A stretch of 32,675 nucleotides of DNA from the NCBI GenBank assembly GCA_949879025.1, contig CATLBO010000031.1, positions 1-32,675 on the forward strand, written 5' to 3'. The translations under genes were made by a program, and so were the position numbers. Shown one piece after another: positions 5,411-32,675 of this stretch. How positions within the stretch are numbered: position 1 is the first letter of the stretch; each line of letters begins with the position of its first letter. The notes below the pieces were generated by a model that ran no database searches, was not told the origin of the DNA, and was given only the letters and a program-made list of their open reading frames with translations. This DNA is from an uncultured Hungatella sp. (GTDB taxonomy: Bacteria > Bacillota > Clostridia > Lachnospirales > Lachnospiraceae).

Positions 5411-7183
5411 TTATTTATCATCTTTGTCTGGATTGTCCCTCTTCCTCTGCTTTTTTAAAAGGGCGAAAAAGTCATCCTCCGGCATAGGCCTGGCATAATA
5501 ATATCCCTGTACCTGATCGCAGCCGATACTGTTAAGCAGATCAATCTGCCCCTTGGTTTCCACTCCTTCCGCCAAAAGCCCCAGCTCCAGCTTGGAGGCC
5601 ATGGAAACCACCTGTTCCAGAATAAGCTTTCCCTTGTTTGATACCATCATATTCTCGATAAACTTTTTATCCAGCTTTATAACGTCAAAGGGCGTTTCCA
5701 AAAGGATATTCAGGGAAGAATAGCCGCTTCCGAAATCATCCATCAGCAGAGTGAACCCTTCTTCCTTCAGTTCCAGTGCCTTCTTGCTTATCTGCTGATC
5801 ATCTGCGCTTTCCGTTATCTCCAGTTCCAGAAGCTCCTTGGGAATGTCATTGTCTTTCACCATGTCCAGCAGCATCCCTACGCACTCGTCATTGCGCAGA
5901 TGTATTCTGGAAACGTTGACGGAAACAGGGCATGGTTCAATCCCTGACTCCTGGCATCTCTTAATAAACCGGCACGCCTCAGCCCATATAAAGTAGTCCA
6001 CATTCTTTATAAATCCATTCTCCTCAATTACAGGAATAAACTGATCCGGATAGATCATGCCCCGGGTAGGATGTTTCCACCTTACCAGCGCCTCTGCACC
6101 GATGATCTCATTCTTACTGATACTGTATTTAGGCTGAAGGTACATCATAATCTGCCGGTTGGCAATGGCTGCCTGCATATTTTCTTCGATAAATTTCCGG
6201 TTATAAAGATTTTCCTTAAACTGCTCCTTATAAAACACCACATTCGTAAGCAGATTGCTCTTAGCTGCCTTTCTGGCCATAGCTGCGCGGTCCTCCATCT
6301 GCCGAAGTTCCACAGTTTTATCCTCCATGGTGTACACGCCGAAAGCCAGCTGTATCTTAGCCTGGTCAAAACTTCTGATCTTTTTATCCAGCATATGAAT
6401 AAAGTCCACCAGCTCCTGTTCTTTGTCATACTCCATGACAACCATAAACACATCGCTGCGCAGATTCACAAAAAAATGCCCTTCCTGGCACGCTTCTTTA
6501 ACCTGCTGGGTAATAAAGCTTAAAATCTTGTTGCCGAATCTCTCGCCGTACAGATCATTAATAATCTTAAACTTATTAATGTCAAACTGGATCGCCCCAA
6601 TCTGCCTTGAGGAAGAATACATCAAATGGTTTACATCCCTCCGGAAATGGTGAAGCTTAACCATTTCTCCAATCAGGCTGTCAATCTCATCGCTTTGGGG
6701 AATGTCATCCAGGCTGATGCTGCTCTCTGTTATATCTTTCAGGTAGTCTTCCAGCATATCTTCCAGGATCTCAATACATATGCTGATCGCTCTGGGACAT
6801 TCTTTTAAAATCAGTCCTTCCCTGCGGATATCCGCCATGCCCTCCGGGCTGGATATATCTTTGCCTAAAATTTCCCGGCAGTTAAACTTGCCGCCCATCT
6901 TTTCCGTAAACGCTTGTATAAACTCTCCAGTCTTCTGATTGCCGTATAGCTCCAAATCTCTGTCCTGGGCATCATAGAATCCCAAAGCCATCCCCAGAAC
7001 CATAAGCCCTGCTGTTATGCAGCCACACACCGCCCCCTGACGCATCCCCCCGCCAAAGCATGTGCTGATCTTTAAAGCTGTTCTCAGCTCCAGTCCGAAG
7101 TCTTCCGCAAATGCCCCAAACAACGCCTGGGAGCAGTGATACTGCTGATGCAGAAGCTGTTCCGCCTTCTCTTTATGTGTCAT
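5411..7183 (-). CDS. C_GCAxxG_C_C redox-type domain fused to degenerate GGDEF and EAL phosphodiesterase
   Basis: Three parts are visible. Residues ~1-150 match the C_GCAxxG_C_C putative redox-active family, with HCSQA (Cys17), FGGGMRQGAVCGC (Cys53/55), FNCREIL (Cys102) and Cys129/136. Residues ~190-310 are GGDEF-like, but the signature site reads RSDVF, so cyclase activity is unlikely. Residues ~320-585 are an EAL domain keeping EALVRW, SVNVS, ELEITES, DDFGSGYSS, LDKKF, AEGVE and QGYYYARP, the metal and catalytic residues of cyclic-di-GMP phosphodiesterases. No membrane segment is seen, so the protein is probably cytosolic. The start is uncertain: an ATG at 7222 directly abuts GAGGAG, while 7183 fits the family N-terminus. 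I infer that the cysteine domain tunes c-di-GMP breakdown. Confidence 0.88.
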   Translation of the reverse strand: MTHKEKAEQLLHQQYHCSQALFGAFAEDFGLELRTALKISTCFGGGMRQGAVCGCITAGLMVLGMALGFYDAQDRDLELYGNQKTGEFIQAFTEKMGGKFNCREILGKDISSPEGMADIRREGLILKECPRAISICIEILEDMLEDYLKDITESSISLDDIPQSDEIDSLIGEMVKLHHFRRDVNHLMYSSSRQIGAIQFDINKFKIINDLYGERFGNKILSFITQQVKEACQEGHFFVNLRSDVFMVVMEYDKEQELVDFIHMLDKKIRSFDQAKIQLAFGVYTMEDKTVELRQMEDRAAMARKAAKSNLLTNVVFYKEQFKENLYNRKFIEENMQAAIANRQIMMYLQPKYSISKNEIIGAEALVRWKHPTRGMIYPDQFIPVIEENGFIKNVDYFIWAEACRFIKRCQESGIEPCPVSVNVSRIHLRNDECVGMLLDMVKDNDIPKELLELEITESADDQQISKKALELKEEGFTLLMDDFGSGYSSLNILLETPFDVIKLDKKFIENMMVSNKGKLILEQVVSMASKLELGLLAEGVETKGQIDLLNSIGCDQVQGYYYARPMPEDDFFALLKKQRKRDNPDKDDK

Positions 7184-7306
7184 ATGCCATACCCCATTTC
7201 TCCCATGCCTGCTTATGTGCATCTCCTCTATTTGTATATTTTAACAAATAGATCCTGATTTGTGAAGTATAATGCGGCATTTTAAACAGTATATTTACCA
7301 TTTCTC

Positions 7307-27927: not shown

Positions 27928-27942
27928 AATCTTATTCTCCTT

Positions 27943-28112
27943 CCGTCCTTTTGCCTGAGAGATTCAGTCGAAACTGTTGCACCTTCGGCCCCCTGTCCTC
28001 CAGGGCTTCTCCGGAATGCCGTCCATTGACAGTCTTAGGCCGGGCTGCTGCACCGGGACCACCTGAGAGTGTTACTCCTTCGGATGACTGAAACAGTCTG
28101 TTTCCTGCCAAC
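27943..28112 (-). ncRNA. Tandem glycine riboswitch (gcvT type)
   Basis: Two aptamer-like blocks lie in the symporter leader. The proximal one (about 28016-27943) has GCCGAAGGTGCAA and CTCTCAGGCAAAAGGACGG, the textbook glycine aptamer core. The distal one (about 28112-28040) has CCGAAGGAGTAAC and CTCTCAGG, but lacks the usual AAAAGGAC, so it is divergent. The proximal P1 can form TTCCG (28016-28012) with CGGAA (27945-27941), whose last two bases belong to the AAGGAG ribosome binding site. Glycine binding could therefore hide the site. This is an inference; whether the switch is ON or OFF is not proven. Confidence 0.88.
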
Positions 28113-28200: not shown

Positions 28201-28812
28201 TTAAACTGGGCTTTTGTTTTCCTTATCCCCCTCCTGTCCCATGACCTTTTTCCATTCCTCATTTTCTTTTGTCACGTACTCGCTGACCTGCTCCATCAGC
28301 CCTTTAATCAGTGGACACTGATATTCTCCATAAGCGCCTGGTTTACATTGGCATCCGCAGGCTGTCTCTTTCCCTGCGTTTTTCGCCTGGCATTCTTTCA
28401 TTTTAATCACATACTGAGACAGGCTCTCTTTCAGCACTTCCGCAGACTTTCTGTAACGCATCCAATTTTCTTTGTTGCGTCCCAGATTATTGATTCCCAG
28501 GGCGCAGCTGGCGATGGCGGCCAAAACCGTCGTTATCAGCTGCGTATCAAGTGAAACTGCCATAGTTTCTGTAACATTTCCTGCTGCATTGGCAATCAAA
28601 ATCAGAAGGTTTGCCGCCATGGCGGTAATACTTAATACATAGTATACGTGTTTATAGTAGATCGCCTTGTCAATATACCACAAAATCAGGTTGCTTAAAC
28701 GGAATCTAAGAGCATCCTCCTCAACCATGTCCAACATATAAATGACAAATTCCCGTTCCCGCTGCGGAATTACATTCCGCCTTTCATACTGTTCCCATTT
28801 CCCCTTTTTCAT
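28201..28812 (-). CDS. SLATT/DUF4231-like two-TM membrane protein
   Basis: A 203-residue protein. Its core fits the DUF4231/SLATT pattern: an amphipathic helix with LRFRLSNLILWYIDKAIYYK, TM1 (~57-77), TM2 (~92-110), then ENWMRYRKSAEVLKESLSQY, equivalent to the family's W..YR...E.LK.E...Y. SLATT proteins are predicted membrane effectors linked to nucleotide-signalling conflict systems (established in comparative genomics). A cysteine cluster (Cys141, 152, 154, 156, 166) follows and is unusual. The start at 28812 is used because AGGAGG is ten bases upstream; the ATG at 28821 is only one base from it. It is the last gene of the five-gene operon, eight-odd bases after the phosphoesterase gene. 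Confidence 0.78.
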   Translation of the reverse strand: MKKGKWEQYERRNVIPQREREFVIYMLDMVEEDALRFRLSNLILWYIDKAIYYKHVYYVLSITAMAANLLILIANAAGNVTETMAVSLDTQLITTVLAAIASCALGINNLGRNKENWMRYRKSAEVLKESLSQYVIKMKECQAKNAGKETACGCQCKPGAYGEYQCPLIKGLMEQVSEYVTKENEEWKKVMGQEGDKENKSPV

Positions 28813-28829
28813 GCTTTCCATGCCTCCTA

Positions 28830-30230
28830 CTATGAAATCTGCAGCGCCAGGCCGTACCCCTGTCTCTTTTCCCAGTTGCCGTCTGTCAGTTTCAGACTAT
28901 AGGGCTGACACCGCATATGGGAAATATTTCCGCTCATGTCTATCTGGTATGATAAATAGTTTACGGTCAGTCTTGGCTCCAAAGGCGTAATGCCTTTCTC
29001 GCTGAACAATCCCGCTGACAATATGTGAACTGGTTTTCCTTCTCCATAATCATGAGAAACCATGGAGAATGATGAGGACACATGGGAATGTCCCACCATC
29101 AAAAGATTTACATGGTTTTCAAAACATTTTTTCAAAACCAGTCCCTGATTCTTAACCGGCGGTATCCATCCTATGTGATCCCCTCTATTATAATGGTCAA
29201 AATAATAGGGAGGTTCAAATACATTGTGATGGAATGTGCCTATGACAAGATAATTCGGATAGTTTTCTTTTACCTTTTTTAACTTTTTTTCAGCCTGGCG
29301 CAGCTGTTCTGCCGTAATTTCCCCATAATCATAGCCGAACTTTTCATCTTCCATGCATGTAGCTGAATTTAAGCCGCATACAATGGTACGCAGATTGGGA
29401 AATACGCTGACTGTGTTAAGATAGTCTCCATAATTATCCACATCAGGATAGTGATAAGACTCTCCTTCATCAAAGCCGTCACCGTACTCTTCCTCCATGG
29501 CTCTGCGGAAATGCACAAAGTTTGAAAAAGCCTTTTTTACAGGAGTATTCCGTACAATATCATGGTTTCCAGGCACATATACGCTTCTTCTGATGCCAAG
29601 GTCTCTGCATAAGCCGCAGAGAAGTTGCTGGGCTCTTTCAAATTCTTCTCTCTTTCCCCGGTCCGAAATATCCCCGCTGAATATCAGAAGATCTGCCTTC
29701 TCTTCAAAGGCTTTGGCAAATCCTGAAAGAATCTGCCCGCTTCTGTCATCTTGGCTCATATGCATATCCGAAAAATGCAGGATTCCCACATTTCTGGCTG
29801 TTACGGTTCGGATCAATTCCCGGCACCAATTCTCATGATTTCCAGTTTCATAAAATCCGACGATCTTTCCCTCATCCTTGTATTCCTGCAGCTTGTCACG
29901 ATATAGCAAATCATAAATTTTTCCTGATAATACAAATATTTTGGTATGAGGCGAATGTTTTCTGATCATATTGATGGCATTGACTCCATTGAGAGTCTCT
30001 TTATCCAAAAGTTCTATATCTAAAAGCAGGATATCGTATACGCTGCTTTCGTCCTTTGATTTTATGATCTCTGTAATTATTTCGTGGCAATATGCCACAT
30101 TTTTAATTTCCGGCTCTGGCAATGTCTCTCTCTCAAAAACTTTCAGAATGCTCTTTCTGCACGATTCGAACACATCCCGGTTATCCTCTGCATGAAGTAT
30201 ATTCAGTCGTTTCGATGCTAATCTTGACAT
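28830..30230 (-). CDS. Receiver domain fused to calcineurin-like metallophosphoesterase
   Basis: A 466-residue, probably cytosolic protein. Residues ~9-143 are receiver-like: acidic pair Glu15/Asp16, phospho-acceptor Asp71 in ILLLDIELL and Ser102 in FVLSGK. The usual Lys-Pro near the end is not evident (GFYETG). From ~147 comes a complete metallophosphoesterase: HFSDMH (Asp155, His157), GDISDRG (186-192), GNHD (221-224), FHHN (333-336) and GHSH (380-383). All di-metal ligands are present, so it should be a phosphatase, nuclease or cyclic-nucleotide phosphodiesterase; the substrate is unknown. AGGAGG is seven bases before the ATG. A receiver driving an MPE is a rare output arrangement. Confidence 0.88.
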   Translation of the reverse strand: MSRLASKRLNILHAEDNRDVFESCRKSILKVFERETLPEPEIKNVAYCHEIITEIIKSKDESSVYDILLLDIELLDKETLNGVNAINMIRKHSPHTKIFVLSGKIYDLLYRDKLQEYKDEGKIVGFYETGNHENWCRELIRTVTARNVGILHFSDMHMSQDDRSGQILSGFAKAFEEKADLLIFSGDISDRGKREEFERAQQLLCGLCRDLGIRRSVYVPGNHDIVRNTPVKKAFSNFVHFRRAMEEEYGDGFDEGESYHYPDVDNYGDYLNTVSVFPNLRTIVCGLNSATCMEDEKFGYDYGEITAEQLRQAEKKLKKVKENYPNYLVIGTFHHNVFEPPYYFDHYNRGDHIGWIPPVKNQGLVLKKCFENHVNLLMVGHSHVSSSFSMVSHDYGEGKPVHILSAGLFSEKGITPLEPRLTVNYLSYQIDMSGNISHMRCQPYSLKLTDGNWEKRQGYGLALQIS

Positions 30231-30303
30231 ACACTTTCCTCCTTATGGTAAAATGCAGCAGCAGGTTTCTTTACATCAACTATCAGTGGGCCGGAGCCCC
30301 TCC

Positions 30304-30849
30304 TTATGTTCGGAATAAATAGTCTTTTCCTTCTTCAGCCGTCAGCCGGCAGACAGTTCCTCCGTAATAAAACCGCTCTATTATCTGGGACTCATCCAGT
30401 ATTTTTGAAAATAATCTGCAGATAATCTTCTCTTTATCTATATGTTCCAATATCCCGCCTTCCACGGGCGCGTCCACAGCATAGACCATCGTATTGCTAT
30501 CTGCGGCCAGCTTATGGATTAAAGACAAAAACCGCTCATCCCACTCCTGCAGAAATACATCCCCATTATAATATCTTTGAAACAGCACATAGTATGACAG
30601 ATTGTCAATAACCACATATCTGTAATCCGTATACGGAAAGGCGGCAATCTCCCCGGCAGACATATTAAATAATTCTATACACCTCCAAAATCCCGGACGC
30701 CGCTTCTGATGCCTGGCTATTACTTCTTCATATATGCTTAAGTTTGGCAAAGTAGCAACATACAGCGTGCTGCCCTCTTTTTTCTTTATCTGCTCCTCAG
30801 CAAATACAGACTTTCCTGACTTTCGTTCTCCCAAAATACATCTGAGCAT
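30304..30849 (-). CDS. CobU-like P-loop kinase/nucleotidyltransferase, outside cobalamin context
   Basis: A 181-residue protein matching the fold of CobU/CobP (adenosylcobinamide kinase/guanylyltransferase). It has P-loop GERKSGKS (7-14), LYVATLP, then IARHQKRRPGFW with His47 at the position of the guanylylated histidine, Asp82 in VVIDNLSYYV, and an ILEHIDKEKIICRLF stretch corresponding to the family's end region. The NEVGxG motif of true CobU reads DAPVEGG, so it has diverged. No cobalamin genes are nearby. It lies between an unknown 370-residue protein (20 bases) and the receiver-phosphoesterase (73 bases). I infer a nucleotide-dependent kinase or switch in the same system, not vitamin B12 synthesis. 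Confidence 0.72.
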   Translation of the reverse strand: MLRCILGERKSGKSVFAEEQIKKKEGSTLYVATLPNLSIYEEVIARHQKRRPGFWRCIELFNMSAGEIAAFPYTDYRYVVIDNLSYYVLFQRYYNGDVFLQEWDERFLSLIHKLAADSNTMVYAVDAPVEGGILEHIDKEKIICRLFSKILDESQIIERFYYGGTVCRLTAEEGKDYLFRT

Positions 30850-30869
30850 ACTTACTCCTTATAAAGGCA

Positions 30870-31982
30870 TTATGAATTATAATAACTGTAATAGTCCACC
30901 TTTCCCTTTATTTTCAGCTCTGGAAGAATCAAAGGCCTGCTTCCTGAGTTGGGAAGGACCCGTATTTCCCGTCCACACAGGCAGTATATTTCTCCCGTAT
31001 GCCCATTAACCGTAATGTCCCTTAGAATATACCCGTTTGTCTCATCAAGCCTGACGATTTTCCATATCTTATCATTGTTCTTTAAAAACAGATCCTCCAT
31101 CAGCTTTATCTTAAATAAAGCTCCCTCCTCCATACAGACCAGCACTTCCTTATATTTGTCCCGCACAAATGCATCCAGTTTCATCTCCTGATTTACTGCC
31201 CGGGCAATTGCCTTCAGCTGGTTCTTTTCTTTCTGTGAAAAAAAATCATACGGATAATAAAAATACATTCTTTTTATTTTATTTTTCAAAACCCAGGTTT
31301 TGAACATCATCTCCAAAAACCGCGAGTCTCCCTCACCGAAGTCGTTATTTTCAAAAAATACCTGACCGTCTCTGTCATAGCAGATAAAAGATTTTCTCAC
31401 TTCATCCAATGCCAAAATAATATCCTCAGAACCGTCTTTTCTGTCATCCGGAGCCATATTTATGCATACCACCTTGTCGATTGTCTGTTCCTCATTGGTC
31501 TTAAAATCAAAGTATCGCTCCAGCAGATCAAAATTCATATATCTTCCATCTTCTAAAGGCCCCAGCAAGCATCGGTATATCATTCCTGCCTCATTGTGTT
31601 CCCACACTGTCAGGTAAAAGTCTTCCTTTAATCTTAATTCTTTCTTTGTAAACCGAAATGACCTCTTATGATACAATTGCTGCTTTTTGGAAAGGAAAAA
31701 AACATCCATAACAAGATTCTTCCTGTCAATGCAGAATATCTTTTTATCATAAATCTCTACCTGCTGATACTGCCTTTGACCGTGAATATCCATCTCTTCC
31801 ATGGTTCTGGTATCCAGATCCATGCGCATAAATCTCTGTTTACTTTCAGAAAAAAGCAGTAATGAGCCGTGATCATCTTTCTCGCCGCCCTGAAAAAAAA
31901 TTCTGTCAAAATCCGAAAAATCTCCTTTTATATCCATAGCCCTAAACTGGGATCTGCTGTTTCCTCTTTCTTTATCATTCAT
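30870..31982 (-). CDS. Uncharacterised 370-residue protein, possibly beta-propeller-like
   Basis: No family recognised. The protein has no signal peptide or membrane segment. Several stretches look like propeller blades: alternating short strands with turns such as LLLFSESKQRFMRMDLDT, EIYDKKIFCIDRKN, SFICYDRDGQVFF and GEIYCLCGREIRVLPN. A central charged stretch (NKIKRMYFYYPYDFFSQKEK) breaks the pattern. GAGGAAG is about nine bases before the ATG. It starts five bases after the stop of the truncated HATPase gene and precedes the CobU-like gene by 20 bases, so it belongs to the same operon. It may be a sensor or scaffold, by analogy only. Confidence 0.7.
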   Translation of the reverse strand: MNDKERGNSRSQFRAMDIKGDFSDFDRIFFQGGEKDDHGSLLLFSESKQRFMRMDLDTRTMEEMDIHGQRQYQQVEIYDKKIFCIDRKNLVMDVFFLSKKQQLYHKRSFRFTKKELRLKEDFYLTVWEHNEAGMIYRCLLGPLEDGRYMNFDLLERYFDFKTNEEQTIDKVVCINMAPDDRKDGSEDIILALDEVRKSFICYDRDGQVFFENNDFGEGDSRFLEMMFKTWVLKNKIKRMYFYYPYDFFSQKEKNQLKAIARAVNQEMKLDAFVRDKYKEVLVCMEEGALFKIKLMEDLFLKNNDKIWKIVRLDETNGYILRDITVNGHTGEIYCLCGREIRVLPNSGSRPLILPELKIKGKVDYYSYYNS

Positions 31983-31987
31983 ATGTT

Positions 31988-32203
31988 TTATCTTCCTCTA
32001 ATCTTCAATGTAACTAAATCAATAGGCAGTCCAATACTGATTCCCGTTTTATTGTCATCATGCAAAACTTGTATCTGTCCCCCCATAAGATCTTCAAACA
32101 AAAGCTTCATGGAATAAAAACCGTATTTGCTTCCTTCCTTTTTAGTAGATTTTCTGTGTTCCAATCCTTCCCTTATGGAAATCTCTGCTTTCTTTGCTGC
32201 CAT
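31988..32203 (-). pseudogene. C-terminal fragment of a histidine-kinase-like ATPase (HATPase), 5' truncated
   Basis: The 71 residues contain a G2-box-like end of a GHKL/HATPase domain: KYGFYSMKLLFEDLMGG, then a strand pair and GISIGLPIDL at the C-terminus. The N box, G1 box and any His-phosphotransfer region are missing. The frame is closed by TAG at 32212-32210, nine bases before the only ATG, and the ribosome binding site there is poor. Since a spoIIAA remnant in the opposite direction is also cut at this point, the gene is probably truncated by a junction rather than naturally short. Its partner in the operon may be the receiver-phosphoesterase. Confidence 0.65.
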
Positions 32204-32235
32204 TTTATCCTATATGTTTTATTTTGCCGCAGACA
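32204..32235. other. Probable junction (rearrangement or assembly join)
   Basis: To the left, a minus-strand HATPase gene loses its 5' part. To the right, a plus-strand spoIIAA loses its 5' part. Codon use also changes, with GCG, TCG and CGC common to the right. No inverted repeats or transposase were seen at the boundary. Confidence 0.6.
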
Positions 32236-32285
32236 AAATTTTGAATTTAAGCGGTATCTATTCGCTTATCCCTAAGGCGGAATAA
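32226..32285 (+). pseudogene. spoIIAA: 3' remnant of spoIIAA (anti-sigma F factor antagonist)
   Basis: In the frame ending TAA at 32283-32285 the sequence reads ADKILNLSGIYSLIPKAE, matching the C-terminal helix and strand of SpoIIAA (compare KRLFDMSGLFKIIRF in Bacillus). It is 13 bases before spoIIAB, the normal operon order. The STAS domain and the phospho-serine site are absent because the gene is cut at about 32204-32225. Confidence 0.6.
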
Positions 32286-32298
32286 AGAGGTGAAAGAC

Positions 32299-32675
32299 AT
32301 GACTAGCAATTATTTAAAACTGCAATTTTATTCGCTGCCCCGTAATCAGGCTTTTGCGCGCGATGCCGTCGCGGCGTTCTGCCTCGAACTCAATCCTTCG
32401 CTTGCCGCGCTTTCCGACGTAAAAACCGCCGTTTCGGAAGCTGTAACAAACTGCACCGTACACGCGTACAGGGGCAATTTGGGGCTTGTCACAATCGAAT
32501 GTGAAATCGAGGGCAAAGAACTACATATAAAGGTAAGCGACACGGGCAAGGGCATACCCGACGTAAGCAAAGCGGTACAGCCCTTTTTCACGACGCTTCC
32601 TTCCGACGAACGCTCCGGTATGGGCTTTACCATAATGCAGACCTTCATGGATGAATTTTCGGTCAATTCTATTCA
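32299..32675 (+). CDS. spoIIAB: Anti-sigma F factor SpoIIAB (serine kinase), partial at the right edge
   Basis: SpoIIAB binds and inhibits sigma-F and phosphorylates SpoIIAA, setting forespore gene expression. About 125 codons are present before the window ends. The sequence begins MTSNYLKLQFYSLPRNQAFA and has SDVKTAVSEAVTNCTVHAY (N box), VSDTGKGIPDV (G1 box), FFTTLPSDERSGMGFTIMQ (the lid and G2 region) and TFMDEFSV, in order and diagnostic for SpoIIAB rather than other GHKL kinases. GAGGTG precedes the ATG. Codon choice (GCG, TCG, CGC) is unlike the genes to the left, which prefer GCC/GCA and TCC. Confidence 0.92.
   Translation, partial: MTSNYLKLQFYSLPRNQAFARDAVAAFCLELNPSLAALSDVKTAVSEAVTNCTVHAYRGNLGLVTIECEIEGKELHIKVSDTGKGIPDVSKAVQPFFTTLPSDERSGMGFTIMQTFMDEFSVNSI

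Follow-up and report, generated by a model that had tools for sequence, protein, structure and literature searches.

The window analysed here, a stretch of 32,675 nucleotides that is the entire contig CATLBO010000031.1 (C31) of an uncultured Hungatella sp. (GCA_949879025.1; 255 contigs, 82.8% complete), carries a minus-strand operon at its high-coordinate end. In order, the operon comprises the end of a kinase-like gene, a gene without an assigned family (gene 4), and genes for a CobU-like P-loop protein, a receiver-phosphoesterase, and a SLATT-type membrane protein. We favor, at just short of even confidence, an interpretation as a two-component-controlled module in which a nucleotide-related enzyme is coupled to a SLATT membrane effector, the likeliest role being a conflict response to phage or another invader. 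By analogy, the best reading likens the operon to phosphoesterase/SLATT conflict systems, with a kinase and a receiver in place of GTPases. If true, phosphorylation by a two-component system would be an additional means of flipping the phosphoesterase/SLATT switch, and the receiver-phosphoesterase would allow the connection between a phospho-relay and an effector of nucleotide type to be assayed directly.

An earlier reading of the letters alone, the first-pass annotation, had described five same-strand genes here; same-strand open reading frames (ORFs) were found for all five, the first being a gene end. The spacing it gave (5, 20, 73, and 8-17 bases) was reproduced from the ORF coordinates, with intergenic gaps of 5, 20, 73, and 8 bases, the last becoming 17 if the SLATT gene starts at 28812. 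Three of the four ribosome binding sites it called clear are so: AAGGAG precedes the CobU-like gene, AAGGAGG the receiver-phosphoesterase gene, and AGGAGG the SLATT gene, where the spacing is better for the second ATG. The fourth, before gene 4, is weaker (AGAGGAAG).

The SLATT/DUF4231 protein (28201-28821, minus strand) is 206 amino acids long, or 203 from the better-spaced ATG at 28812. Its proposed identity as a SLATT-like protein with two transmembrane segments was borne out by curated profiles, with NF033634 (SLATT_1) scoring 55.9 bits against a cut-off of 41 and PF14015 (DUF4231) 34.8 against 24.7; the failure against DUF4231/SLATT profiles that had been named as damaging to the proposal did not occur. 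The Pfam SLATT_1 and SLATT_3 models stayed under their cut-off of 26.3 (PF18181, 18.4; PF18184, 18.1). A 19-residue hydropathy scan placed two hydrophobic stretches, with peaks above 1.4, at residues 59-77 and 95-113.

Upstream lies the 466-residue receiver-phosphoesterase (28830-30230, minus strand). Its phosphoesterase domain matches PF00149 (Metallophos) at 53.5 bits (cut-off 21.5; E 5.4e-14), and a text search recovered all of the metal motifs DxH, GD, GNHD, H, and GHxH. At the receiver end, the acidic pair E15/D16 and the phospho-acceptor D71 align; for both domains, the roles of these residues are those that we take the families to share. The best NCBIfam profile is NF053862 (DS9_1_antiphage), at 72.5 bits and far under its cut-off of 420. 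Within the phosphoesterase part (residues 144-237), three PADLOC models, used throughout without a cut-off, matched at E 8e-9 to 7e-8, namely PDC-S60, PDC-S10, and an effector model, and a search of solved structures returned cyclic-nucleotide-type phosphoesterases such as Rv0805 (best E 0.0054).

Among the DS9_1 matches listed for 348 phylum genomes, the window protein (71.2 bits) ranks third, after those of genomes G866 and G934, and the company kept by the top matches favors a link to conflict loci. The fourth match, in G1140, belongs to an operon assigned by Pfam to GAP1-N1, GASH, DO-GTPase2, and phosphoesterase-GAAD, and the G934 phosphoesterase likewise carries GAAD, with GASH- and GTPase-like ORFs, recognized by eye, after it (the two conflict-type operons are at L052:2023-8251 and L051:7842-12132). 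In G866, the phosphoesterase gene follows that of a PHP-type large protein, again by eye. Across 20 regions around DS9_1 matches, three of them from the own genome, the only operon protein to find matches at E 0.01 was the receiver-phosphoesterase. These relatives associate the phosphoesterase type with conflict loci and are not proof for the window operon. Two other phosphoesterases stand apart as observations: a 1227-amino-acid ORF in Bradyrhizobium (L068:5414-9094) joins WD40 repeats, a Roc/Ras-type GTPase, and a calcineurin phosphoesterase, and a protein in genome G002 (L007:1483-3252) has, by eye, a phosphoribosyltransferase-like C-terminus, its neighbors being a phosphoribosyltransferase-like ORF and a HATPase-like ORF.

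The kinase component extends beyond the contig. Where C31 has the kinase end, G010, another genome of the genus, has a whole 743-residue protein, and the window aligns with G010 at 90% identity up to about base 32216. A second contig of the own genome, C21, encodes residues 1-675 of the same protein at 93% identity (C21:194-2218), its match to G010 beginning at C21 base 203; the C31 and C21 matches to G010 both end within the same ~31 bases. The free-standing "HATPase fragment" gene of the first-pass annotation is therefore rejected: the 71-amino-acid ORF at 31988-32203 (homologous stretch 31988-32216, minus strand, by alignment to G010) does encode the end of a kinase-like protein, but it is the cut C-terminal piece of the longer protein. 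In the G010 copy, TPR_12 scores 31.6 bits (cut-off 30.1). The kinase motifs LHKFKNDL and EIVNNA were assigned by eye, and no membrane segment is predicted. The search of solved structures returned a designed TPR protein (E 8e-4).

The CobU-like protein (30304-30849, minus strand; 181 amino acids) was correctly called CobU-like, as PF02283 scores 51.2 bits against a cut-off of 27 and the Walker A motif GERKSGKS is kept, together with an RH motif. With CobU (adenosylcobinamide kinase/guanylyltransferase) it has in common the Pfam family and the Walker A and His motifs, and solved CobU proteins were its nearest structures (best E 0.0048). It differs in that the match stops at residue 134 of 181 and that the bifunctional CobU equivalog PRK05800 is not reached (47.5 versus 161). 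Contig C16 of the same genome holds a higher-scoring CobU (110.1 bits) and a partial match (44.3 bits), so a cobalamin role is not required of the operon copy, in keeping with a role in the proposed module. As a separate observation, the protein matches PHROG 28212, of unknown function, at E 2e-6; a tblastn search against phages returned none at E 0.001. Gene 4 (30870-31982, minus strand; 370 amino acids) had been offered as a possible beta-propeller, an idea that found no backing, as Pfam, NCBIfam, and PHROGs gave no significant match and the solved-structure search nothing convincing. An assignment to BrxB is likewise unsupported, the PADLOC matches being weak (E 0.0018 for the window protein and 0.0026 for the G010 copy).

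Taken together, these assignments suggest the following route. A TPR sensor without membrane segments and with a histidine-kinase-like core would sense an internal cue through its repeats and act on the receiver, whose fusion partner is a phosphoesterase that retains its metal motifs. The kinase would probably also act on a LytTR response regulator encoded divergently beside the operon, raising operon expression. The phosphoesterase would change a nucleotide-type ligand, with the CobU-like P-loop enzyme perhaps counteracting or priming it, and the SLATT protein would answer at the membrane. Phosphotransfer, substrate, SLATT gating, and the defence role are all inferred. A more specific version, an immune module set off through a two-component relay, we hold to be doubtful: in it, the intracellular TPR kinase itself would recognize an invader and switch the receiver-gated phosphoesterase, a nucleotide substrate or product of which would control the SLATT protein, and the kinase would also induce the operon through LytTR.

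The nearest published parallel is found among GTPase-centered conflict systems. The available part of one survey names the calcineurin-superfamily phosphoesterase as the commonest effector of GAP1-N1 systems, several times joined by a SLATT protein with two transmembrane segments; among vWA-associated effectors, the same part reports receivers as sporadic and no histidine kinase domains (PMC7159879). The window operon shares the phosphoesterase and SLATT pairing described there and differs in having a TPR kinase-like protein and a receiver instead of GTPase parts; operons of the GTPase-centered kind are those of G1140 and, partly by eye, G934. It is not a GAP1-system member: GAP1, GASH, DO-GTPase, and GAAD were looked for in its proteins by Pfam scan and none was found. 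With the DS-8 and DS-9 defence systems, it shares a metallophosphatase of the same broad family, DS9_1 being the best NCBIfam match, and metallophosphatase residues are needed for defence by both, according to the accessible portion of that report (PMC13092281). The same portion gives a predicted HAD phosphatase as the second gene of DS-9 and a NACHT domain for DS-8, and mentions no kinase, receiver, or SLATT protein for either (PMC13092281); the operon proteins have no HAD match, and the phosphoesterase score of 72.5 bits compares with an equivalog cut-off of 420. Like classical two-component systems, the operon combines a kinase-like core, a receiver-output fusion, and a LytTR neighbor, but its output is a phosphoesterase, its TPR sensor lacks a predicted membrane segment, and its receiver apparently lacks the conserved lysine. 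The first-pass annotation knew of no described system with this gene set, and none turned up in the literature screened by title and abstract start, where absence is not absence in print; the phosphoesterase/SLATT pair itself is published for the GTPase-centered systems, as the available text of the survey shows (PMC7159879).

Homology between the window genome and G010 spans the transporter gene alsT, the five operon genes, and the LytTR gene, which each genome has divergently beside the operon, and ends just past LytTR, consistent with a unit of operon and regulator. To one side of the operon lie pyrH and alsT, and to the other, in the own genome, lies aroD. There, two minus-strand genes follow LytTR ahead of aroD (L149:3365-5969, on C21), and both match PADLOC defence models. 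The first encodes a 432-amino-acid protein that scores 460.8 bits with the model BnzB of Bunzi, an anti-phage system; its residues 22-336 cover profile positions 158-476 of 504, so its N-terminal part is absent or different. The second encodes a 362-amino-acid protein that scores 99 bits with the candidate-system model PDC-M09A and has a weak match to LeoBC. Pfam gave no match for either protein at E 0.01. Ten neighbors of the operon were scanned with PADLOC.

The gap between the kinase and LytTR genes measures 317-343 bases across the two genomes. The G010 gap contains a promoter-like site, a type found 22 times in the scanned stretch against 14.9 expected, and three tandem 10-base repeats occur in the gap of both genomes. 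In single-base shuffles, with period 10 as one of five periods tried, the repeat score was reached in 0 of 500 (own) and 4 of 500 (G010); period 12 nearly equals period 10, at 15 versus 16 in the own genome and 15 versus 15 in G010. That LytTR binds in this gap is a guess.

Selection and composition were compared over the same genes. Ratios of nonsynonymous to synonymous substitution rates (dN/dS), taken from the single pair of own genome and G010 as values without a significance test, were 0.035 for the receiver-phosphoesterase (the lowest), 0.043 for alsT, 0.088 for the first 672 kinase codons, 0.090 for SLATT (203 codons), 0.111 for gene 4, 0.145 for LytTR, 0.147 for the CobU-like gene, and 0.208 for the short kinase end. 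The range of 0.035-0.147 for five whole genes and the 672 kinase codons favors a maintained module. The G+C content at third codon positions (GC3) was 0.425-0.512 for the operon genes, 0.484 for LytTR, and 0.523 for alsT, compared with 0.520-0.609 for the housekeeping genes pyrH, frr, polC, and aroD; the lower operon values favor the conflict reading in that they may resemble those of acquired genes.

Several results weigh against a conflict module. The receiver matches PF00072 (Response_reg) at only 21.8 bits, under the cut-off of 30.2 (E 2.1e-4), and by eye S102 is kept and the conserved lysine is apparently missing, the nearest being Lys 122 in a C-terminal half that is unreliably aligned. 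A receiver without any one of five residues is a pseudo-receiver in the available part of a 2025 perspective (PMC12632262). With the lysine apparently missing, phospho-switching is not a given. The kinase core of the G010 protein matches HATPase_c at 14.9 bits over profile positions 6-108 of 111, under the Pfam cut-off of 26.4. The DS9_1 profile also catches phosphoesterases of the ordinary kind: at E 0.001 it matched 109 of the 348 phylum genomes, none of them above the cut-off, and 8 of 14 controls, and several lower matches, among them those on contigs C89 and C12 of the own genome and in G1058, G842, and G900, resemble, by eye, exported enzymes in ordinary loci. On the G010 side of LytTR, there are no BnzB- or PDC-M09A-like genes; a BCCT transporter and an ATP-grasp protein follow, with surface-glycan-type genes by eye, and PADLOC gave six G010 neighbors nothing beyond weak SspA/DndA matches to one aminotransferase-like protein. 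The check for defence neighbors thus came out positive for the own genome, with two PADLOC matches past LytTR, and negative for G010. Low dN/dS fits ordinary physiology equally well.

Distribution points the same way. Of 61 genomes, 9 gave some match to the receiver-phosphoesterase and 2 had it at full length: the own genome and G010, which are 2 of the 26 from the genus. Wider samples returned the own genome alone: 391 class genomes searched with the receiver-phosphoesterase (E 1e-12), 397 family genomes with gene 4, and, with the TPR kinase, 387 family genomes (E 1e-5) and 353 phylum genomes (E 1e-6); the family, class, and phylum samples were drawn from larger groups, searched with one protein each, and evidently omitted G010, which would have matched. 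No sampled genome outside the genus held the module, and the proteins tried against plasmid, phage, and viral-contig collections had no match there. A profile search of genome contigs, for which the alignment was widened with a distant phosphoesterase, returned at least 588 stretches, of which 85 were confirmed and 80 kept; the best locus listed had 27% identity, with short segments up to 36%. Among the 1301 ORFs of the kept loci, none matched the kinase, gene 4, CobU-like, SLATT, or receiver sequences at E 0.05. The co-occurrence of three or more genes in independent genomes, which the first-pass annotation had looked to for support, was not found, the module being present in two genomes of one genus; nor were homologs seen scattered through unrelated neighborhoods, the pattern it had named as contrary. 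Its overall proposal accordingly keeps a kinase-like protein, a receiver-phosphoesterase, and a genuine SLATT protein in one operon, and is weakened by the receiver residue, the HATPase score, and the lack of independent co-occurrence.

Against this background, a signaling role in ordinary physiology is unlikely though credible: the TPR kinase would sense a metabolic or envelope state, and the phosphoesterase, CobU-like, and SLATT proteins would adjust a nucleotide, a cofactor, or an ion flux, with invaders playing no part. The receiver-phosphoesterase is as constrained as alsT (0.035 versus 0.043), the operon sits between pyrH/alsT and aroD in the own genome and has transporter and surface-glycan-type genes on its far side in G010, and defence-type neighbors occur in one of the two genomes, all of which suit such a role. 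Harder to accommodate are the patchy presence in the genus, the BnzB- and PDC-M09A-like neighbors of the own genome, a best phosphoesterase profile that is anti-phage, and a SLATT/phosphoesterase pairing known, from the available survey text, in conflict systems.

Two further alternatives concern how the parts relate. The phosphoesterase could itself be the effector, with nucleic acid or a metabolite as its target, as may hold for the DS-8 and DS-9 enzymes, and the SLATT and CobU-like proteins would then be accessory or independent. Its metal motifs are present, DS9_1 is its closest NCBIfam profile, and catalytic residues are needed in DS-8 and DS-9 as far as the accessible report goes; we nevertheless consider this clearly unlikely, given the distance from the DS9_1 cut-off, the lack of a HAD match, and a SLATT gene kept in both genomes at a dN/dS of 0.090. 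Less probable still is that unrelated functions came to lie co-oriented by chance in an integration-prone spot. The gene set comes from two related genomes, so its co-occurrence is not independent, and gene content beside pyrH varies; short gaps on one strand, a kinase-like protein and a receiver in one operon, and a LytTR gene that is kept where the sequence beyond differs all argue for a functional unit. The conflict-response module thus stays our preferred interpretation.

The break at the contig edge may be an assembly fault or a true interruption of the kinase gene by an insertion in this strain, and composition fits either. In 5 of 14 genus relatives read, pyrH is no more than about 5 kb from aroD, which supports C31 (with pyrH) and C21 (with aroD) as neighbors; the survey took in 14 of 24 other genus genomes, some stretches stop at contig ends, and pyrH was missed by ORF picking in L190 and L192. 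Gene content beside pyrH (L182-L195) varies in the genus, with other gene sets elsewhere, and resembles a variable site. An exact 12-base stretch is common to both contig ends (window 32189-32200; C21 203-214), the longest in the two short stretches compared, and could be a target duplication or chance. Alignment gave neither tip a counterpart at the corresponding place in G010, and no inverted repeat was apparent by eye at the tips. The C21 tip (L149:1-202, 202 bases) is single copy in the own genome, with a hairpin and T-run by eye. The C31 tip (32217-32675), outside the operon, holds most of an anti-sigma-F (SpoIIAB) gene (TIGR01925, 160 bits; cut-off 135) with a genome-like GC3 of 0.56, and a second SpoIIAB-like match (35%) lies on contig C14.

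A few kilobases past aroD, a 404-amino-acid ORF (L149:8423-9637, on C21) resembles, by eye, an IS110-type transposase. On the other side of the operon, a glycine riboswitch (RF00504, window 27933-28024; 62 bits, cut-off 32) lies upstream of the alsT-type transporter gene, and farther into the window a 603-amino-acid ORF (5411-7222) combines, by eye, a cysteine-containing N-terminal domain with GGDEF/EAL-like parts.

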